Shown piece after piece: positions 13,717 to 28,526 of a stretch of DNA of 29,248 bases; the stretch's first letter is position 1; each line of letters opens with the position of its first letter. The DNA lies in contig JAEPRB010000374.1 in assembly GCA_016758965.1 (NCBI GenBank), positions 1 through 29,248 of the forward strand, in the 5' to 3' direction. The notes under the pieces are model-generated. The model was not told where the DNA came from. It made no database searches and was given only the letters and a program-made list of their open reading frames with translations. Both the position numbers and the translations under genes were made by a program. Origin of the DNA: Circinella minor (lineage: Eukaryota; Mucoromycota; Mucoromycetes; Mucorales; Lichtheimiaceae).

Positions 13717-16353
13717 TTATTTTTCTTTGTCATTCGTGATAAAATCCAATGAAGATGGTTCGATTTTTTTCTCTTCATCAGCTGCAGGACTGGAATCAGA
13801 AATACTTCCATTATCAAAATAACGAGCTAATTCACGTCCAAGATCATTTCCATCAAGTTTAGGCATTCTTTGAGCCATTTTAACAGGTGACACATTTTCT
13901 TCATTTGCTTTTGCAAACATTACATCCAATTCTTCAAGACTTCTTCCTTTGGTCTCAGGATACCAAAAGTATACCTAACAGGAAGAGGTATAATAGTGAA
14001 TAATGATGAGCCAGAAACAAATAATAATATCCATAACAACAAGAACAATAAAATAGTGATAACTTACAATAGGAATAAACAAAAAGTTAAAGATAGCAAA
14101 AATAACGTAAATACCATAACCAATGTTTGCAATAGCAGGAGGAGTAATCATGACAATTACATAGTTTGAAAGCCAATTGGAACATGTAGATAAGGCATTG
14201 GCTTGGACACGGGTACGAAGAGGATTGATTTCAGCAGGATATAACCATGTCATACCAAGGAAACCAATCGCAAAAAATGTGTTAAAAGTGAATAAAGTAA
14301 GCGTACCTACATAACCTTCTGCATCTGGAACAACAAGTGCACCAAATTCATTTCTCCATCCAGCACTTAAACAACCTGCTAATACAGCCATGGATACCAT
14401 CATTCCGACCAATCCAACAAACATCAATTTACGACTAATAAGTTAAAGTATTAATGAATTATTTAGGCTTACATTATTCATTGTAATAACATTACTTTAT
14501 GTTTTGAAATAAATCAAAAGAATGTATGTGTTTACGTACCGACCATAACGTTCAACAAAAAACATGGCAACAAGAGCCGATAACCAATATTCAGTACCGT
14601 TAATAGCTGCCAAAAGACGAGACATGGCAGCATCAAAACCAAGTGATTCTTCGAAAAGCATAGTAGCATAGTACCTTTTATTTTGATGCAAAAATTTTTA
14701 AAAAGAAAAAAAAAATTAGAATTCAAAAAGTTGCATAAATAAATTAGACGTTTATACTAAATACAGTATATACATATACATACGTAATAAGATTAATACC
14801 ACAAAACTGTTGCATAGCTTGAGCAATCACACCTAACATCATACGACGAAAATGTTGAACATGACCATGACGCAAAAATTCACGATACGAAAATTTTTGA
14901 CCCTCAAGAGCTAAAGTATGTTCAAGAATAGCCATTTCTTCAGAAACTTTTTCGCTCTCGATATCTTCACCCGCTAAACGAGCCACAACTTCACGAGCTT
15001 CTTCATTACGTTGTTTTTTGAGTAACCAACGAGGAGAGTCAGGAAGTATAAAGACACCAAGAATGACAATAATGGAAAAGATAGCTTGAAAAGCAATAGG
15101 AAAACGCCATCGAATACTACCTTCCAAAAAATAAAAACCATAGTCAATCCAATAGGATACCATAATACCGAAACCGATCAACATGCCTTCGTTCATAATA
15201 AGAAAACCACGATCTTCAGGTTTTGCACATTCACTTTGCCATGTAGGAATGGTGGATGTCACCATACCATTCCCAATACCACCAAAAATTCGACCAAAAC
15301 AAAGAGTACCATAATCATGAGATGATGTTTGAACGACAGTACCAAGCTATTATTATATAAAGATAAAAAAAAAAACATGAGATTATTGTTATTGATGGAA
15401 GATATTTTTTCATAAAAATAGATAAATTGAAAGAAGAAAAAAAAAAGGATGATATATACAGTGACAATAACAGTACCCCAAAAAGTAGAGCTACGACGAC
15501 CCCAGGAATCACCAAAGAACAAAACAAGAACAGCACCTAAAAAACATCCCTATTAAAAGAAGAAGGTAAGTTTTATTTACTTATTATTATTTTGACACAA
15601 GATATATATACTGAGCTAATAGACTTTTTTTTTTCCTACTTACTATTTGATAAATGCTGACCATGTTCTAAAAACCCATATATTAAAATAAAGTGAGTAT
15701 ATTATTATTTACATTTGTATGCAATAAGAACAAAAAAAAACAACGTACAGATTGTAATTCAGGGGTACCAATACACATGCCATCTTCTTCACAAAGGGGG
15801 TTGGCGTCAGAGTGAGGAGTGGCTGTAGGGAATTGCCGTTGAAAATCATCGAGCTGTTTAATCATTAAAATATATATTAGTATGAATATTTATTTCATAA
15901 ATAGACATGATAGTAACAAGACTCATTCTTTTTCTTTTTATTCTTTTTTCTTTCTTTAGAGTATCAATTATAATTTACCGTAAGCAAAGAACTCATAACA
16001 CCTTGATCATAACCGAACATACTAATAATTTTTATTACGACATGAGAAATACATTCTTTTTTTTTCCTACTATACGAACTGCCTTTTTTTTTTATATAAA
16101 TGATAACCAATAGAATATAACTTACAGGCTAATGAAAAAAAAAATCAAGTTAGAAATCTACTTGATATAATAATCAAACACAATCATCCCAAAATATATC
16201 GGTTTCCAATGTTCATGTAAAAACTTACAAACCACAACCAGCAATAAAACCAATACCCCAATTAAGGGCACGACCATGTAATTTTTTACCATTTTGAATT
16301 TTAATTTCTGGTAAGTAGGATAGTTTACGAACAATAGTATTAAAGAATCCCAT
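13717..16353 (-). CDS. SP-family MFS sugar (hexose) transporter, copy A
   Basis: Ten exons on the minus strand: 16353-16229, 16128-16126, 16021-15979, 15853-15749, 15667-15644, 15549-15460, 15346-14784, 14674-14540, 14434-14068, 13974-13717; 570 aa. It is a plasma-membrane proton-coupled or facilitative hexose carrier of the fungal high-affinity glucose transporter type. Family motifs are FGYDQGV (45-51), DSWGRR (114-119), GRIFGGIGNG (148-157), WQSECA (166-171), SYWIDYGF (194-201), PDSPRW (232-237), QQFCGINLITYY (309-320) and PETKGRS (491-497), spread over a twelve-helix fold. Cys78 and Cys84 in the first outer loop could pair. The cytosolic tail after PETKGRS is acidic and Ser-rich. Exon 2 appears to be 3 nt long. 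It shares long stretches with copy B. The exact sugar cannot be read from the sequence. Confidence 0.93.
16126..16128 (-). other. Putative 3-nt micro-exon, transporter A
   Basis: On the gene strand the trinucleotide CCT lies between ATTAG and GTAAGT. Exon 1 ends in phase 2 (TT) and exon 3 starts with T before ATG, so including CCT gives Phe42-Leu43-Met44, matching the usual GFLxFGYDQG spacing. Flanking introns would be 100 and 104 nt. A branch-like CTAAC lies shortly before it and recurs in copy B. Confidence 0.75.
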
Positions 16354-16525
16354 TATTCTTTTTTTTTTTTTAAAAAAAAAAAGAAAGAAAGTAGTTATAG
16401 AAAAAAAAGAAGAGAGTAGGGGAATCTTGAAAAAAAAAAAAATTATGAAATAAGGAAATATTCCATATTTAAAATGATTTTTATTTTTCTTCAAGGCGGC
16501 ATTGCAGAAAAAAAAAACTTAATTT

Positions 16526-16542
16526 GGTACGACACCAATACC
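16526..16542 (-). promoter_or_regulatory. Conserved A/B promoter element (copy A)
   Basis: GGTAC-N7-ATACC lies 173-189 bp upstream of the A start codon, inside a stretch also found upstream of B at a similar distance. A second shared word, ATACTCCGAAAT, follows at 16651-16662. The rest of the two promoters has diverged, so these words may be protein-binding sites. Confidence 0.45.
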
Positions 16543-16679
16543 AAGATTTCTATATCACTTGGATTTAGGGTTAACTTTTTCTTTAATGCTTTTAACATTG
16601 TGGTTGTTGTGTTTCCAGAAAACTCAGAAGAAAAGAAGGGACACACACACATACTCCGAAATTACCTTCGATTTCGGAT

Positions 16680-16694
16680 GCGGGGGATGCGGGG
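16680..16694 (+). promoter_or_regulatory. Two Mig1/CreA-like GCGGGG sites upstream of transporter A
   Basis: GCGGGG occurs at 16680-16685 and 16689-16694, 327-341 bp upstream of the start codon. It fits the SYGGRG consensus of fungal carbon-catabolite repressors Mig1/CreA, which control sugar transporters in other fungi. The sites sit at the edge of a G-run, so they may be low-complexity sequence. Confidence 0.35.
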
Positions 16695-18258
16695 GGGGGG
16701 TGGGGCTGGGAGGGAAGAAGAAGAAGAAGAATTCGACTATCATTGGGATTGGACAAAGTTGTACATATAAACCACATTAAAAATAGAGTGGGGTTTATTA
16801 ACCCAATATAAGACATTATCATTTTGTTTAGTAACGAAACCCTCATAGTAAATTAAAAAGATTTCCGAATAAAAAAAAAAAAAAAAAAAGAGTTATAATA
16901 TCAGAACAGTTCTTATCCATAATTTTCCGTTTTTCCATTCTGTTTCGATTCTTTTTTAATTTCATGATTACTTATCTCTATCATAGCCGTTTCCTTTGCA
17001 GTAATTTTGTAACGAATACCATTTTTACTTTGTAATATAGCAAAAAATATAAATAATCATGTCTTTTTTTATTGCATTTTCTACCTTCCAGAAAAAAAAA
17101 ATTAATTAATCAGAAATTCTTATTGTTTGTTTATTTTTATTTTTTATAATAAATTAATAAAGGTACGAATACGTATATTGATCTGTTACTAGTATTTTTT
17201 TTTTCTTTTTTTTTTTTTTTGGATCAAGTTTTTATACATATTTCTAATGTGTAAGGAGATAAATGCAAAAATGTATAAATTGATTTATGACGTCGTAAAA
17301 CATGGAAACGGAAATTTTGTTAAATAAATGTCCTTTTTATTTCGTTTTCTTAATTTTCTAAATCATATTCCTCCCCCCCCCTCTCACACACTTGAGCTAT
17401 TACCAAGTGCCCGGGTTACAGTGATTTCACTGAATAGAATACGTAACATATAAAAAACGGTTTCGTATAGATGTGATACATTACTCGTCTGAGCGGCAAT
17501 AAAAAAAAAAGGGGGGGGGGAGAGTATCTTTTGTTTTCTATAGAAAAATTGGAAATATATATAAAACATATGATCAATAAAAGGAAAGAAAAGGGATACC
17601 GGTAGAACAATTAGTCATTACTTAGTAATAATAGTAACAAAGTTTCTATTACTTTTTATTTGATATATATATGAGAATACTTTGCGTATCTATCCAAAGA
17701 TTTTTTTTTTTTTGTTCTGTCATTATTTTTTGTTTTGGTTACCATGGTTTCTCTTCTTTCAATTACTTTATCTATATTCACTTTTATATATATAATTATC
17801 TTACGTAGGAATACGTAATACATAAAGTAAAATGTAGCAAATACACATGATACTTTTAAAATTTACAAATAAATGTAATTAATCATAAAAATGAACAATG
17901 AGTTACGTATTTCAATAAAAAAAAATAGTTTCTATTATGCAAATCCTCTTTATAACTTTGTTATATTGGTCTTTTTATTATATAAGTAAATCATAAAAAT
18001 AAGATACTACATATATAAAAACAATTATATACACTTTGGGAGCGGAGGGAGAAATTAATAAACAACATAATTGATTTTCTACCAAAAAATAAAAACAAGT
18101 CTAAAAAATAAAAAGATGGGAAATACGTAAAGAAAGGAGTAAGAAAAAAACAAGAGTTTTTGATACTATACAAATAATAAAAGCAATACTGTCTATTATA
18201 ACAATATAAAAGAATGCCTCAAAAAAATACATAATAATAATAATAAGTGTTATAATAT

Positions 18259-18545
18259 CTAAGCCTTTTCAGAGTTGTCACGTTGTTGTCCATCGTTGGT
18301 ACTTGATAAAGAATCATTCAAAGCTGTTTTTGCTGAAGGGGTCTTTTCAATATCAGTCAAAGAACCATCACTCGTTTCATCATTATTAAAGTATTTAATA
18401 AGTTCACGTTCAAGTTCAACACCTTCAAGTTTAGGCATTATTTGAGCCATCTTAACAGGTGAAATCTTTTCTTCATTCGCCTTTGCAAATAATACATCCA
18501 ATTCTTCCAATGAACGTGCTTTGGTTTCTGGATAAAAGAAATAAA

Positions 18546-18578
<33 letters not shown>

Positions 18579-20952
18579 ATATGGTTAAACTTTTTTTTTA
18601 CAAAAATAATATGTTTCTACAGAGTACCAAAAAAAAAACAGGAAAAAAAGAGAGGGAAAGAAATCTTATATGATAACGAAAAAAATTATATGTATGTACT
18701 TACAATAGGAATAAACAAAAAGTTAAAGATAGCAAAAATAACGTAAATACCATAACCAATGTTTGCAATGGCAGGAGGAGTAATCATGACAATTACATAG
18801 TTTGAAAGCCAATTGGAACATGTAGATAAGGCATTGGCTTGAACACGGGTACGAAGAGGATTGATTTCTGCAGGATACAACCAAGTCATGCCAAGAAAAC
18901 CGATAGTAAAGAAGGTGTTAAATGTAAAGAGGGTGACAGTACCAACATAACCTTCTACTTCGGGGAGAATAAGAGCACCAAATTCATCCTTCGTACCGGA
19001 ACTCAAACAACCTGCTAAAACCGCCATTGATCCCATCATTCCGACTACTCCAACGAACATCAATTTACGACTATATTCCATAATAGAAAGTGTTAGTATA
19101 TTTAATATGTAAATGGCTCTATTGTAATATTAGTAGAAATGATAAAAGAAAAAAAATTAAACTCACCGACCATAGCGTTCGACAAAAAACATGGCAATAA
19201 CAGCAGATACCCAGTATTCAGTCCCATTAATAGCAGCCAAAAATCGAGACATTGAAGCATCAAAACCAAGAGATTCTTCAAAAAGCATAGTAGCATAGTA
19301 TCTTTTTACATTGATTGAATATAAACAAGAAATGAGTGTGTATTTATATATATATATATATATCCATTTTTTTTTTTTTTTGCATATCAAGAAATGGAAA
19401 AAAAAAGTATTATACTTACGTAATAAGGTTACAACCACAAAATTGTTGCATAGCTTGAGCAACAACACCTAACATCATACGACGAAAATGTTGAACTTTA
19501 CCATGTCGTAAGAATTCACGATAAGAAAATTTTTGACCTTCAAGAGCTAAGGTATGTTCAAGAATAGCCATTTCTTCAGCCACTTTTTCACTCTCTGGTT
19601 CTTCATCAGCCAAACGAGCAACAACTTCACGAGCTTCCTTTGTATGATTCTTTTTTAGTAACCAACGAGGCGAGTCAGGAAGTATAAAAACACCAGCGAT
19701 AACAATGAGTGAAAAAACAGCTTGAAAAGCAATTGGAAAACGCCATCGAATACTTCCTTCCATAAAGAAGAAGCCATAATTAACCCAATACGAAGTCATG
19801 ATACCGAAACCAATAAGCATGCCTTCACTCATAATGAGAAACCCACGATCTTCAGGTTTTGCACATTCACTTTGCCATGTAGGAATGGTGGATGTCACCA
19901 TACCGTTACCAATACCACCAAAAATACGACCAAAACAAAGAGTCCCATAGTCATGGGATGAAGTTTGGATAACAGTACCGAGCTATTATTATATGATATA
20001 GAATATACAACGAGTGGTTAACAAGAAAACTTTTTTTTTTTTTAGGAATTTTGAAGACTAATCACTATTATTATAATACATACAGTGACAATAACGGTAC
20101 CATAAAAAGTAGAGCTACGACGACCCCAGGAATCACCAAAGAACAAAACGAGAACAGCGCCTAAGAAGCATCCCTATTAAAAGAAGAAGGTAAGTTATTT
20201 ACTTATTATTATTTTGACACAAGATATAGATACTGAGCTAATAGACTTTTTTTTTCCTACTTACTATTTGATAAATGCTGACCATGTTCTAAATGTCCAA
20301 ATAGTAAAAAAAAAAAATAAGTAATTATATTATTATTTATAATTTGTATGTACGTATACATTAAAAAAAAAAAGAAACATACAGATTGTAATTCAGGAGT
20401 ACCAGTACACATACCCTCTTCTTCACAAAGAGGATTAGATGCAGAGTATGGAGTAGCAGTAGGAAATTGACGTTGAAAATCGTCAAGCTACGATCATAAA
20501 GAGTAATGCGTTAATTACGTAAAATGATTCTTATTCTTCTTTTTTTTTTATTTAACTTACCGTGAGCAAAGAACTCATGACACCTTGATCATAACCGAAC
20601 ATACTAAATAATATTTAAACAGCATTTACTTACGTATTATAATATAACCATCCACTATGCTTTTATAACTATAACCAACTTTAATTAATATAAAAACTTA
20701 CAGACTAAACAACAACAACAACAGAGATACATAAAAATTACATTTTTTTTTTTTTTTAAAAAAAAAAAGACAAGTTAGAAATATATTTGGATGCGTACGA
20801 AATTACGAGAATTTAATATTAACTTACAATCCACAACCGGCAATAAAACCGATACCCCAGTTAAGCGCACGACCATGTAATTTTTTACCATTTTGAATTC
20901 CAAATTCTGGCAAATAGGATAGTTTGTTGGAAAGAGTTTTGATGAACCCCAT
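18259..20952 (-). CDS. SP-family MFS sugar (hexose) transporter, copy B
   Basis: Ten exons on the minus strand: 20952-20828, 20704-20702, 20603-20561, 20487-20383, 20288-20265, 20173-20084, 19982-19420, 19301-19167, 19070-18704, 18546-18259; 580 aa. Every exon before the last has exactly the length of its counterpart in A, so the two are close tandem duplicates. Motifs match A: FGYDQGV (45-51), DSWGRR (114-119), GRIFGGIGNG (148-157), PDSPRW (232-237). Two normally conserved positions differ: QQFCGCN has Cys in place of Ile314, and the terminal signature reads PETKARS, with Ala replacing Gly495. Whether these alter substrate use is unknown. The C-terminal tail is 10 residues longer than in A and differs after the shared FAKANEEKxSPVKMAQ stretch. 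The intron before the last exon ends in a 28-base T run on the gene strand. Promoter shares an element with A. Confidence 0.93.
20702..20704 (-). other. Putative 3-nt micro-exon, transporter B
   Basis: TCT lies between TTTAG and GTAAGT on the gene strand, at the same coding position as in A and C. Inclusion gives Phe42-Leu43-Met44. Flanking introns are 123 and 98 nt and have diverged from those of A apart from the splice signals and a branch-like TTTCTAACTTG near 20771-20781. Confidence 0.75.
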
Positions 20953-23251
20953 TTTCCAACACTATATAAATGAAATAATAATAAAATAAAAAAAGATAAC
21001 AAAAGAGACAGAGGACAACTTTATGAAATCAATGAAGAAAAAGACTTTATATTTAAATGATGTTAAAAAATGATTCCAAATGAAGAATAGTATATCGGGA
21101 TATATACATATATTATAAAAGCTTTCAAAAAAAAAAACCAGTTTGGTACGACTTCAGTACCGAAGATTTTGTTGATGATTTTAGGAACGTGCGTAAGGTG
21201 GTTTTTATCATTTTATGTTCTAGAAAGTGAAGAAAACTAACATATATACTCCGAAATGATTTTGATTTTTGATCATGTGCAAAGAAAAAAAAATGAGAGA
21301 AATTATATATTATTAGATATTGATATTAACCATAGAAATAGTAAAAGCTATTATTTTGGAATATGAATACCAAAAAGAGAGATTATTTTTTTTTTTGTGA
21401 TCCAAGCAAAGTAATTGAATAGTTTTTTTTTTTCCTTGTAAATTCTGTAAGAAGTACTTTCGAATAATTTGACCAAAAGAAGTTCCGTTTTTCCAGTCCG
21501 CAGAATTTTCTACCTTTTGGATCTTCCTAGTTACCATTCTTGTATTCAGTTACAGCGGTACTTTCTTAATTGAAGCGATTTAAACAGAACTTGATCACAC
21601 AAGGAATGGGATCACAAAATAAAAATAAAAAATCTCAAGCTTCCATTGAAGTCTATTGGCTTCATTTGAAACCCATTTAAAGTTTTATAATAAATTGATA
21701 AACTTAAATAAACAAAGCTGAAATTGATTGTGTGGTAAATATAGTGGAGCTAATACGTAAACAGATTCTATATATTATATATTCATTTTAAAAATGTTTA
21801 TATGTTATTTATATTACAAAAACATTTATGTGAATAAAAGTAATGAGTGCAGTACATATTAAATTGCTATTATTGTTTGTTACTGTTACAATGTAGATGA
21901 TGTACAATAGGTAAATAAGTTACAATAATAAGTTGAATCTTGTGTGCTTATGAATTTCTTATCTTTTGTTTTTTTCTTAATGACGTTATACATGGAATTA
22001 GATGATGTTAAAGAATGATATGAACTTTCTGAATTTTCTTAACACTCTTTATGCACTACCACCATCAGCCTCCTTCCCCACCCCCATCCCCACGCCACCC
22101 CCCAAAAAAAAGGTATAAGGTAGAGGAATTGATTATTGTTATTTTTTTTTTCTTTTTGAAAGAAAAGGGGGGAGGTGCTTCAATTAATTTCATGTGACAA
22201 CATTGTATTTTTATTCTCGGTAAAAAGGGGAGAAATCATAGAATCTTTGGAAAAAAAAAACCTACTTTACTAACCCCCTCCCCCCAATAAAGAATTAAAA
22301 ATAAAGATAATTTGTCTTTATCTAGAAAATAATCATATATTTCTACTTTTTTGTAGTTTTTTTTTTCTCTGTATACGTAGATCCCGATTTTTCTTTTCAT
22401 TATGGGCATTCATGCAACATCTGTCAAAAAAAACATATTGTGTAACATGAGTACATGAGGGGATCATATGTAACAGATATTCATTTTATCTTTTTCCAAT
22501 TTCACTTCTTTAAAGACTAACCAATCTACAATATCACTATGGTTACTATATTTAATCAGTTTAATAAAATACAACATAAAATCATCTTTGGAAACATATT
22601 GTAGTAAAAAAAAAAAGAGAGAACGAAGCTATAGATTACTTCACCTTTAAGATGGATATATATGTAACAACGACAGAAAAAAAAGTAGAAAATAGTATTT
22701 AATTTTATATAGGCTACTCAACAATTGTTTTCATTAATAGTTTGCTATGTTACCAACTTTGGGAAATAACTATGCAACACGAAAATATATATAAAAAAAA
22801 AAGAACAATGATTCAATGGTAATTTGTGTATAAAAGTTATTACAAATATAACGACATTTAAAAAGACTTACAATATAAATAATTATAATAAAAAATACTT
22901 CAAAATTTATATTTAAACTATTTGTTTGTTCGATAATTTCTTTTGATTGTATTTGTGAGAACAATCAAAGTTAAATATTAATTTAATAGTATTTCATAAA
23001 GTTAAGAAGGAATATCCGTTATAAAAAAGGGAGAGAGAAGAATGAGAGGTTTATAAAAAAAAAAAAACTATTAAATATAAAAAAAAAGAGATAGGCAAAA
23101 AGAATAGGAAGTACGTAGTATAAAAACAAATATTGATAAAAGGAGGAAAGAAATAAAAGATTTTGAATAAGTATATAAAGGGGAAATAATTAAAAATAAC
23201 AAGAGAACCAAAAAAAAAAAAAACAAAAATAATAAATAAAAAAAAAAGAAT
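20953..23251. other. Intergenic region between transporters B and C
   Basis: This 2.3-kb stretch holds the B promoter on its left and the 3' flank of C on its right. The rest shows only short chance ORFs and C-rich or G-rich tracts around 22070-22290. No gene or known RNA is visible. Confidence 0.55.
21145..21161 (-). promoter_or_regulatory. Conserved A/B promoter element (copy B)
   Basis: Here the element is a perfect interrupted palindrome, GGTAC-N7-GTACC, 193-209 bp before the start codon. The flanks (TTT before, AAGATTT after) and the downstream word ATACTCCGAAAT (21246-21257) match the A promoter. No clear copy is seen upstream of transporter C. Confidence 0.45.
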
Positions 23252-26232
23252 CTAAGCCTTTTCATCAACAGCAACTTTTTCAGAGTCACCACCGTTAGAT
23301 TTTACTTGTTGAGCCTTTTCAACATCACTAGGTGAATCACTATCACTGCTACCATCAAAGTATTTAGCAAGTTCACGTTCAAGTTCATGACCCTCATAAT
23401 GGGGCATGTCAAATGCCATCTTAACCGGTGAAACACCTTCTGCATTTGCCTTGGCAAAGACAACATCCATTTCTTCCAAACTACGTCCTTTGGTTTCAGG
23501 GAAATAAAAGTAAATCTATAAAACATATGAGAAGTAAAAAATTAGAATTCCCGTTAATATCTTCTCATGAAAAGCAATATACATATGTGGGTGGGTATAT
23601 ATTAAAAGATTTTTGAACTATTATGAAATTGAATGTTGTGTGTACAACCCAAATTGTTATCTACTTACGATAGGAATAAACAAAAAGTTAAGAATGGCGA
23701 AAATGACGTAAATACCATAACCAATGTTTGCAATGGCAGGAGGAGTAATCATGACAATAACATAATTGGAAAGCCAGTTGGAGCAAGTAGACAAAGCGTT
23801 GGCTTGGACACGAGTACGAAGAGGATTAATTTCTGCAGGATACAACCAAGTCATACCAAGGAAACCAATAGCAAAGAAGGTGTTGAAAGTGAATAAAGTA
23901 AGAGTACCTACGCCACCTGGACCCTTTTCCAAAACAATTCTTTGTTCTGAATCACGAGTACCAGAGCTAATACAACCAGCAAGCATAGCCATACTGCAAA
24001 TCATACCAACGAGACCAACGAACATAAGCTTACGACTATAAATATATATTTAAAACAAACATATGTTTTTTGTCGTTTAGAGTTTTAGTAACTTTAAAAG
24101 AATTATTTAAATAAAAATAAGATTGAAAAAATAGCTTACCGGCCAAACTTTTCAATCATAAACATAGCAACAATAGCTGACAACCAATATTCAGTACCGT
24201 TGATAGCAGCCAAAAGACGAGACATCATAGCATCAAAACCAAGACTAGAAGAAATGAAAAAAAAAATTGTGAGTAAATTAAATATGTATATAAGTAAATG
24301 ATTTTTTTAATTAAATTTTGGATACTTACGATTGTTCGAAAAGAACGGTAGCATAGTAGCTATTAAAAAAAAAAAAGAACAAAGAAATTGTCGTCAGTAA
24401 AGTAATAAAATGTAAACAGAAGAAAATAAAACAAAATTCGGAGGAGGTAGTTTGTTTACTCACGTAATAACATTAATACCTAAAATAATAATAAGAAAAT
24501 GTAAGTATATGCATATAAGATATTGACTCAAAAACAAATGTACATAGACGTGCAGCATAAAATGCAATTTTATTTACTTATTTATTTATTATACTAATAA
24601 TGAAAAAATACTTACCACAATACTGTTGCATAGCTTGAGCAACAACACCAAGCATCATACGACGGAAATGTTGAACACGACCATGTTTCCAGAATTCACG
24701 CCATGAGAAACCTTGTGCTTCAAGAGAGATAATATGTTCAAGAATAGCAACTTCTTCATTCACAAGATCACTGTTAGGATCAACATCATCAAGACGAGCA
24801 ATGACATCACGCGCTTCCTCATTATAACCTCTTTTTAATAGCCATCGAGGAGAGTCAGGAAGAATGAATACACCAGAGGCAACAATAATACCAAAGAATG
24901 CTTGAAAAGCAACAGGGAAACGCCAACGGATACTTCCAGTACAAAAGTAGAAACCAAAATCAATCCAGTATGAAATCATGATACCGAAACCAATAAGCAT
25001 ACCTTCGTTCATGATAAGGAAACCACGATCTTTTGGTTTTGCACATTCACTTTGCCATGTAGGAATAGTAGATGTAACCATACCGTTACCAATACCAGTA
25101 AAAATACGACTGAAACAAAGTGTTCCATAATCATGAGCAGCAGCTTGAATAATTGTACCAACCTATAAATCATTTTTTTAAAGATAGGTGTCAGTTTTAT
25201 AAAAAAAAATAAAGTATAATAATATAACACAAAGGTATATAAACTTACAATAATAATCAAGGTACCCCAGAAAGTAGAAGCACGACGACCAAGAGAATCA
25301 CCAACCAATAAAATTAAAATAGCACCTAATAAGCAACCCTATAAAAAAGCCAAGAGTAAAGAAAAGATTAGTTATAAATATTTTTGCCTATAACTTTATG
25401 GAAAGCAATGTAAAAAAAAAAAGAATCAAAAGGCTTAAAACTTACGATTTGATAAATAGAAACCATGTTCTATAATACAAATAAAGTTATATGGAAATAA
25501 ATTAGTATTGATGTTCAAAAACTGCTTATCATTTTTTTTTTGGGTTCCCTAATGTAATTTTGTTTATCTTACCGACTGAAGTTCTGGTGAACCCGTACAC
25601 ATGCCTGGTTCTTTACAAACTGGATTTGAAGGAGAAAAAGGTGAAGCCGTAGGGAATTGTCGTTCAAATTCAGGAAGCTATACATATACGTTATCGTTAT
25701 TAGTCACTTTTTTTTTGTTTGCAATTTGTTGTCATCCTCATTCACTGTGTATGAGGGAAGAAGAAAATAATCTTACAGTAAGCAAGGAGCTCATAACACC
25801 TTGATCATAACCGAACATACTAAATAAATAAATGTTACAAGATAAACCATCATTACATCCAACATCAAAAGCTAATATATTAATAAAAAGAATAATAATG
25901 TCATCATAGTAAATCGATCATTTGAATCAAAAATAACTTACAGACTACAAAATAATATTTTTTTCAAAAATATAAATCATAAAATTAGTTTTTTTACATC
26001 AATATATAAAGTTATGAACGGGGATGATCGATGTAAGGAGCTAATGTATATACTATTTAAAAAGACGTGGGAGGGTTATATGATGGTAATTAAAAAAAAA
26101 AACTTACAATCCAGCACCAGCAACGAAACCAATAGCATGATTTAAGGCTTTACCATGAAGTTTCTTACCACCTTGAACTTTAAATTCAGGGATTGAAATC
26201 AACCATTTTCTTACAGCTTGCAAAAAACCCAT
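23252..26232 (-). CDS. SP-family MFS sugar (hexose) transporter, copy C
   Basis: Twelve exons on the minus strand: 26232-26108, 25944-25942, 25819-25777, 25677-25573, 25469-25446, 25338-25249, 25162-24616, 24479-24464, 24359-24330, 24244-24140, 24035-23669, 23515-23252; 572 aa. The start codon is in a strong context (CCACCATGG). It is the most diverged of the three paralogues but keeps the same length up to codon 485 and all nine shared intron positions, plus two extra introns that cut out a 16-nt and a 30-nt exon. Motifs: FGYDQGV (45-51), DSLGRR (114-119), PDSPRW (232-237), QQYCGIN (309-315), PETKGRS (491-497). The family GRxxGGxGxG segment reads SRIFTGIGNG (148-157). First-loop cysteines 78 and 84 are kept. 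Function is probably hexose uptake at the plasma membrane; specificity may differ from A and B. Confidence 0.92.
24464..24479 (-). other. 16-nt micro-exon specific to transporter C
   Basis: It encodes the GINVIT part of the helix-7 signature QQYCGINVITYY, between a TTTAG acceptor and a GTGAGT donor. Exon 7 of C (547 nt) plus these 16 nt equals the undivided 563-nt exon 7 of A and B, which confirms the model. Confidence 0.88.
25942..25944 (-). other. Putative 3-nt micro-exon, transporter C
   Basis: TCT lies between TGTAG and GTAAGT at the same coding position as in A and B. Flanking introns are 163 and 122 nt. Conservation of this tiny signal in the most diverged paralogue argues that it predates the duplications and is kept by selection. 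Confidence 0.75.
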
Positions 26233-26551: not shown

Positions 26552-28526
26552 GCAATTTAGTTACACAAACAGGCGCTATTTTTTCCGGTTTTGGAGAATT
26601 GTACAGAAATCTGTCATGTTGATAACACCTTTTTTTTTTTTGTCTTATTCTGCTTAATTTTCTTCTCTGTATTGACACAGATAACCCCCCTCCCCCCCAA
26701 AAAATATCATATAAAAAGCACAAAAAGCGACTAGAATACATTATTGTTGAGCACAGCCCGCGCTACTCCAGGTTTTTTTTTTTACTGTCACAGGATATTT
26801 AAATTTAAGATAATGTAATAAGAAAAGAATAGATATTTTTAATTATTATATATATATATATATATCAATTTTCTTTATGTGTGTCTTTTTTTTTTACATG
26901 AGGAAAAATCAAGGACAATCATTCTTTTTTGGATGTATCACAGACAACATTAAACAAATCATTATCGGGCTTATTATACATTTCTGTCCATTTCTATTCT
27001 GATTTACACATTTCTATAAGCAGCATGTGATGTCGCGGTACAGCCCGATTAAAAAAATAATTCTACCTTTATTGACCTTTCGTTAAATGGTTTTCATAAT
27101 ACATATATAAACAATACAATCTTTTATGTAGAAGAATGATATGGTTTTTGTATAAAAAAAATAGCTATTGAAAGTTAAAAAAAAAAGGTATGCCACTCAT
27201 AACTAATTCTTCAAATAAATACAGGTGATTGGGTGGCAAACGGAGAAAAAAAAAACCTTACTTGTTCAATAAATCCCATTTACTTTCTTCAACCTTCTTT
27301 CACACTTAACCCCCCCCAACATCTCATTTTGTTTTTAGTTCATTTTTATTATATCGCTTTTGTGTCATTTGTGTTTTCTAAGGCTTCTACTTGTTGTACA
27401 ACTATTTTTCTCTTTTAACGAAAACTTTTTTTTTTTTGGGGGGGGGGAGAGGAAAACAAAGAGTGAAGAACCAGATATTAATCAGATATTATTACGACAA
27501 AGCAGGAGACATAGAAACCCAATGTTATCAAGAGTTATCAAACACTCGTTGTGTAAGGGAAACTATTATATTATAATGACACAGTACTAAAACTCGTCAT
27601 AAGGGATTTTATTTCCGTTTAAGAAAACGTACTACTTATAATGCAAATTTGACGCCATCAAGTAATGAATGCCATTACAACGAGAGCGAAAGAAAGAGTT
27701 ATCACTTTTTTTGAATGTTGATGTAAAATAATACCTTTTTGTTATACTAGTAAGTAATATTTTTTTGTTATTTTTTCTTCTGTTTCTATTTTCAAGAAAT
27801 AATCTCCTAAAGTTTCTACCTTTTTTTATTTCTTGGGATTTACTACACACGCTTTTTTTTTTTTTTTTGCATTAGAGAAAAACTTTAAAAAAAGGCTTGG
27901 GGATCCAGTAATATCTGATCGGAGAAAAGAAAAACAGAAAACCTGAATTGTTCTCTGTGATGTGCACTGGTGATGCGAACATATTGCAAATAGAAACACA
28001 TAATACAAATAAGTTTTGTAAGACAATTCAACAATTTGAAAGTTAAGAAACAATAACATGTTTTTTTCTTACTACCTATTAAGTGGAATTTTTAATTCAT
28101 CATCTATTCTTTTGATAAAGTCAAATAAAATAAAAGATACCGGGTGAATGGGTTTTTCTTGTCCCCCACAATTATTTTGTCTTTTTCCTCCCCCCTACCA
28201 ACAAAGTTTCCACAATAGTTAACAAAATACATATTTACTATTGGTATGAAAAAAAGTTTCGTGGGACTCACTAAATCAGGTTAAGGTTTATCAACATATA
28301 GTTTCACTTTTTTTTTTTGGTCTTGAAAGACAGTATAATTTCGTTTTTCTCCACACATAATATACACAGCCCACTCCCTAGATTTCTAAACAATAGAAAG
28401 CATATGATACGAATAATTTTGTTTCTATGGTTACTAATAATTTCTCAGGTAACTGCGTCCCACTTTTAGTTATGAGTAATAAATATTATTGACTACTCTC
28501 TCATTTTTTTTTTACTTAGTAAGAAT

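Follow-up and report, generated by a model that had tools for sequence, protein, structure and literature searches.

Three tandem, putatively STL1-like transporter genes of Circinella minor very probably share a three-nucleotide internal exon

Can an internal exon consist of three nucleotides, and do three neighbouring transporter genes of Circinella minor (Mucorales, Lichtheimiaceae) each contain one? The question is raised by a 29,248 bp contig, the whole of which we analysed (hereafter, the window); genome-wide scans covered the 46.6 Mb assembly of 619 contigs. Three neighbouring tandem copies of a transporter gene lie on the minus strand: gene A (13717-16353; 10 coding exons, 570 aa), its paralogue gene B (18259-20952; 10 coding exons, 580 aa) and its paralogue gene C (23252-26232; 12 coding exons, 572 aa). 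Genes B and C match gene A at 483 and 418 of 570 aligned residues, respectively. Gene A scores above the curated cut-offs of TIGR00879 (328.3 bits; cut-off 237.8) and PF00083, Sugar_tr (383.2 bits; cut-off 22.3), and thus belongs to the sugar porter family of MFS transporters. The profile scan was of gene A, and genes B and C are placed in the same family because of their identity to it. STL1 is the source-given name of several of the nearest ascomycete homologues among the best 120 of 4082, and we call the three genes STL1-like, a provisional label in that it rests on the names of homologues, which are not tests. Transporters of the STL1 type are glycerol/sugar proton symporters.

The initial annotation proposed that a trinucleotide with its own splice sites is a real exon in all three genes and supplies one leucine. 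The coordinates of these islands proved exact. On the gene strand they read TAG-CCT-GTAAGT in gene A (16131-16120) and TAG-TCT-GTAAGT in genes B (20707-20696) and C (25947-25936), so that exon 2 would be CCT at 16126-16128 and TCT at 20702-20704 and 25942-25944, all on the minus strand. In gene A, exon 1 (16229-16353, 125 nt) ends in phase 2 (..GGT TT); intron 1 (16129-16228, 100 nt) and intron 2 (16022-16125, 104 nt) both run from GTAAGT to TAG, and exon 3 (15979-16021, 43 nt) begins T-ATG. The final TT of exon 1, the initial T-ATG of exon 3 and the lengths of 125 and 43 nt are common to all three genes, as had been claimed. Introns 1 and 2 are 123 nt (20705-20827) and 98 nt (20604-20701) in gene B, and 163 nt (25945-26107) and 122 nt (25820-25941) in gene C.

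The trinucleotide completes the Phe42 codon with one base and begins the Leu43 codon with two; the final T of the Leu43 codon comes from exon 3, ahead of the ATG. As predicted, all three translated models then read GFLMFGYDQGV and stay open. If the trinucleotide is omitted, the frame is also intact and one residue is lost (GFMFGYDQGV; 569, 579 and 571 aa for A, B and C), again as predicted. We made the models by our own splice-aware alignment with a hand-built gene A protein as query, and this recovers the 3-nt exon in all three genes; because a gap costs slightly more than an additional intron in its scoring, it builds the models but does not arbitrate on the exon. Other short exons occur in these genes. 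Exon 5 of gene A is 24 nt (15644-15667, minus strand; NMVSIYQI) and has counterparts in B (20265-20288) and C (25446-25469). Gene C also contains exons of 16 nt (24464-24479) and 30 nt (24330-24359), produced by two additional introns that interrupt what forms exons 7 and 8 in A and B; either C has gained these introns or A and B have lost them. Farther along the contig, positions 27256-27279 of the minus strand read ATGGGATTTATTGAACAA followed by GTAAGG and resemble the first codons of the transporters (MGF..). We found no convincing further transporter homology around this element, between 26300 and 29248, and it is perhaps a relic or due to chance.

Homologous proteins indicate which of the two forms is expected. 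From 7997 scored candidates we found 4082 homologues and used the best 120 for counts at the junction, which is covered ungapped in 106. Opposite Leu43, these 106 have Leu (96), Thr (6), Phe (2) or Ala (2). Exactly residue 43 is absent from only two of the best 120, P0005 of Dichotomocladium elegans and P0008 of Fennellomyces sp., both of which we take to be Mucorales. Two others, P0100 and P0109, have other gaps or are misaligned at the junction, and ten do not cover it. In P0100, a Tilletiopsis transporter, four residues (GYDQ or equivalent) are missing within the TM1 motif, possibly another missed micro-exon or a model error.

These counts bear on the reading that there is no exon at all. 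In that case exon 1 would be joined straight to exon 3 to give GFMFGYDQG, and AG-YCT-GTAAGT would be a decoy, a relic or a product of chance. The direct join is in frame, two Mucorales proteins are deposited in the GFMF form, and the broad Pfam models score the protein higher when Leu43 is left out: gene A then reaches 385.8 instead of 383.2 bits against Sugar_tr (2.6 bits better) and gains 2.7 bits against MFS_1. However, the residue that the island supplies is the one found in 96 of the 106 ungapped homologues from the best 120, and Leu is carried by the Circinella umbellata orthologues of two of the genes. Rightly placed islands that spell Phe-Leu are very unlikely to occur by chance in three genes, and they persist within largely diverged introns. 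We consider it very improbable that the island is no exon.

More distant relatives give a mixed picture. We aligned 20 distant paralogue loci to gene A; the first helix lay outside the models and was read by eye in eleven. The best-scoring of the 20 (locus L038 on contig C21; 39-41% identity, depending on the stretch) reads AGVGFLLFG in one open frame, which speaks for Leu43, and since YDQGVMSG follows in another frame downstream, we infer an intron there. Several of the distant paralogues read motifs like GGFLFGYD, so distant families cannot decide the register. The plant transporter STP10 aligns with the C. umbellata orthologue P0001, which has the Leu, ungapped in this region, but a one-residue shift in the variable part of the helix would fit as well.

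Could other splice sites supply the leucine codon, as the initial annotation allowed when it named what would count against the exon? We enumerated single-intron joins between GT or GC donors up to 45 nt from the end of exon 1 and AG acceptors between 75 nt ahead of exon 3 and 30 nt into it, with an intron of at least 30 nt and an open, in-frame product. There were 22, 9 and 6 such joins in A, B and C, respectively, and none adds 3 nt. The only one of unchanged length is the direct join of exon 1 to exon 3. Judged as an ultra-short micro-exon (15 nt or less), the trinucleotide thus has canonical sites on both sides, TAG before and GTAAGT after, in three of three genes; it provides a residue expected from homologues that none of the enumerated joins supplies, with the 2.6 bits of the broad Pfam model standing against it; and it has the same size and position in three paralogues, with phase 2 on both sides.

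The proteins deposited for related fungi also look as they would if a 3-nt exon had been overlooked in some of them. The ten top homologue rows are all taken to be Mucorales. Six have FLMF: P0001 and P0006 of C. umbellata, P0002 of Phascolomyces, P0003 of Fennellomyces, and P0004 and P0007 of Lichtheimia ramosa. P0005 and P0008 read GFMF. The remaining two begin downstream: P0009 (Lichtheimia corymbifera) within exon 5, the one of 24 nt, and P0010 (Syncephalastrum) with MFGYDQG, exactly at exon 3. From P0008 the octapeptide NMVSIYQI of exon 5 is missing as well, so that short exons seem to have been lost from its model. This pattern, in which the residue is present or absent or the protein starts downstream, would be the trace expected from an exon missed by annotation, and P0005, P0008, P0009 and P0010 are probably wrong or truncated at the junction through annotation errors. 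The C. umbellata orthologue of gene A is P0001 (96% identity, FLMF) and that of gene C is P0006 (94% over residues 1-130, FLMF). Since the intron pattern is very likely shared within the genus, these two models probably rest on transcripts. C. minor itself is named on none of the best 120 homologue rows (of 4082). The proteins of genes A and C may have been absorbed into the 90% clusters that P0001 and P0006 represent. Gene B, at 85% identity to A, should have a row of its own, and its absence among the rows listed suggests that it is not annotated at full length.

How much of the likeness between the three islands is due to chance or to common ancestry? In the window, the motif YAGNNNGTAAGT (YAG-NNN-GTAAGT) occurs 4 times against 0.32 expected, a number reached in none of 100 shuffles, and three of the four occurrences are the three exon sites. 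In 20,000 dinucleotide shuffles per gene of the stretch from exon 1 to exon 3, YAG-NNN-GTAAGT arose in 0.2%, 0.5% and 0.06% (A, B and C, respectively). When the triplet had to encode Phe-Leu (YCT), the figures were 0, 0.015% and 0%; for YAG-YCT-GT, a less strict motif, they were 0.4%, 1.9% and 0.5%. The percentages of the three genes are not to be multiplied, because the copies share ancestry. Fourfold-degenerate sites differ by 32% between A and B, 38% between A and C, and 41% between B and C. In global alignments of the flanking introns, all six comparisons were at about shuffle level, with 41 to 242 of 300 shuffles reaching the observed score. The claim that these introns have otherwise diverged therefore holds for intron 2, whichever two genes are compared, and for intron 1 when gene C is one of the pair. 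It fails for intron 1 of A/B, where local alignment finds a common block of 30 nt that none of 500 shuffles matched. This block contains a branch-site-like element, TTTCTAAC or TTTCTAACTTG, and a T tract, and it lies farther from the acceptor in gene B. Its presence means that conservation is in part plain ancestry. The paralogues are not independent. The donors that flank the 3-nt exon are GTAAGT in six of six cases, compared with 11 of 23 donors elsewhere in these genes (one-sided Fisher p = 0.026, indicative only, as the genes are related), and the flanking acceptors are TAG in six of six.

Sequence has probably also been exchanged between A and B. Intron 5 is nearly identical in A (15550-15643) and B (20174-20264), and most other introns have diverged. 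In exon 9 the second half is 92-100% identical and the first half 73-88%. Together, these observations suggest probable gene conversion or sequence exchange between the tandem copies.

The homologues, the enumeration of joins, the unchanged signals and the Mucorales proteins all support a real exon supplying Leu43 in the three paralogues. We are highly confident, from these comparisons of sequence, that each tandem STL1-like gene has a constitutive 3-nt internal micro-exon of phase 2-2 that would supply Leu43 in transmembrane helix 1 (GFLMFGYDQG). An alternative is that the exon is a cassette, so that the Leu43 form and a form shorter by one residue are both made and the register shift of helix 1 tunes transport. 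The initial annotation had pointed out that skipping would make such an isoform; the arithmetic is sound, and nothing here shows that skipping occurs. The exon is symmetric (phase 2-2) and its omission leaves the frame intact, the gene A forms with and without Leu43 both fit Sugar_tr well, alternatively spliced 3-nt exons are known, for example in Drosophila TnT (PMC8042270) and hth (PMC7392893), and the two deposited Mucorales proteins without residue 43 could in principle reflect real skipping. However, the position is filled in 106 of 108 proteins (those from the best 120 that are ungapped or lack only residue 43), and the splice signals are perfect on both sides in all three genes. We regard alternative inclusion as unlikely, though somewhat less so than the absence of an exon.

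If the exon is constitutive, how might it be spliced? The flanking introns measure 98-163 nt and the remaining introns of genes A, B and C 73-157 nt; we suspect that the flanking ones are recognised by intron definition. They may be removed one after the other, since two spliceosomes could hardly occupy a 3-nt exon together. The uniform GTAAGT donors may offset the missing exonic donor context. We postulate that the arrangement predates the duplication of the three genes, that it probably originated when a conserved motif came to hold two introns separated by 3 nt, and that it may have been retained because helix 1 would change its register without the residue.

Removal in two steps could also leave no exon behind, if the whole stretch were a stwintron or were spliced through a zero-length recursive site. 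Stwintrons are known in fungi (PMC5639578), and the locus does have consecutive introns with AG and GT close together, but two-step removal of this kind would take away the conserved residue too. By inspection, no external donor or acceptor assembles across the junction to form a stwintron: exon 1 ends in T rather than in G or GT, and CCT or TCT follows the AG. A zero-length recursive site needs AG directly before GT, and three bases intervene in all three genes. We give two-step loss of the trinucleotide next to no credence.

Islands of this form are, by themselves, common in this genome. TTTTAG followed by 1 to 12 nt and GTAAGT has 162 matches, and the reversed control, with 317, has more. 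Spacings of 5 nt make up 22 of 100 listed matches for TTTTAG (162 in total) compared with 5 of 100 listed for TTTTGA (270 in total). We read six of these 22 loci closely and glanced only at the printed translations of the other 16. Five of the six are ordinary open reading frames entering a donor, three as TTA-GNN-NNN up to a phase-0 donor and two in another frame, and we take the excess of 5-nt spacings to be mostly a matter of coding periodicity. Among the matches listed, eight have 3-nt spacings, and by eye, in an inspection that was not exhaustive, none has flanks that can be joined across.

The sixth locus looks like a genuine 5-nt exon. GTTGT, on the plus strand of contig C64 (L088:2524-2528; also L071:924-928), lies in a Dbl-homology/BAR (dynamin-binding-like) gene and reads TDIN-VV-HGFNKK with its neighbours. 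If the neighbours are joined without it, a stop follows after 14 codons, and the exon is thus needed for the frame. The C. umbellata protein P0134 reads TDINVVHGFNKK; the deposited C. minor protein P0135 reads TDINNLDYIDDIIEKKK, entering the intron behind the 5-nt exon and missing the exon. Among the 54 homologues listed, [VILM]VHG[FI][NT]K is present in 21 and not in 33. Many of the 33 have insertions, gaps or unrelated residues exactly at the junction, and such scrambled junctions are found in Mucorales, Umbelopsis, Mortierella and arbuscular mycorrhizal relatives. Divergence or incomplete sequence may be all that sets some of the 33 apart. The pattern suggests that this exon is old and often broken by annotation.

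We speculate that Mucoromycota have an old set of constitutive exons of less than two codons (3 nt, 5 nt) that would be spliced reliably by intron definition and systematically mis-annotated, with many deposited zygomycete proteins corrupted at such junctions; the case for and against this is, to us, evenly balanced. Exons of 3 nt are easily overlooked by gene annotators, and there is a practical warning in this for the transporter family, in which the deposited P0005, P0008, P0009 and P0010 are those that we suspect. Few codon-sized exons are on record, and genes A, B and C would contribute a natural example that is clean and comes in three copies. Three diverged copies and a frame-neutral exon could serve as a test of the spliceosome on an exon far below its footprint, and of how complete inclusion is.

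Exons of 3 nt were already known, fungi included, and the view in the initial annotation that this size is at the lower limit has to be given up, as 1-nt exons have been reported in Arabidopsis (PMC4674806) and Fusarium (PMC12940212). Our search of the micro-exon literature by fungal and Mucorales names returned no Mucorales case among the matches listed, and the case described here is without an earlier report among them. A Trichoderma paper from 2024 describes functional micro-exons as previously undescribed in filamentous fungi (PMC11121469). In Ascomycota, lipS of Dactylellina haptotyla has two 3-nt exons (PMC5639578) and the nank family of Tuber melanosporum has multiple alternatively spliced "codon-sized microexons" (cited in PMC4986451). 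These resemble the exon of genes A, B and C in size, roughly one codon, in internal position and in coming from a filamentous fungus. In contrast, the Circinella case comprises one exon at one position in three tandem Mucorales transporters, and it appears to be constitutive.

The 1-nt exon of Fusarium CYP621A P450 genes (PMC12940212) is similar in that a conserved protein motif reveals the exon, the flanking sites are conserved and pipelines find it hard to handle. It differs in restoring the frame and in being confirmed by SRA reads, whereas the 3-nt exon is frame-neutral and known from sequence. In plants, micro-exons of 1-15 nt are conserved (PMC8831610), and stepwise removal of the flanking introns has been proposed for the 1-nt exon of Arabidopsis APC11 (PMC4674806). 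Like the exon described here, these are coding micro-exons conserved in position and phase and often mis-annotated, and the VPS55 micro-exon shares with it conserved GTRAGT donors. The plant cases are backed by RNA-seq or experiments, and that of genes A, B and C is read from the genome. Lastly, the 3-nt exons of Drosophila TnT (PMC8042270) and homothorax (PMC7392893) are also frame-neutral but are alternatively spliced, and in homothorax the 3 bp are the start of a longer exon of 48 bp, whereas in genes A, B and C the three nucleotides stand alone between two introns.
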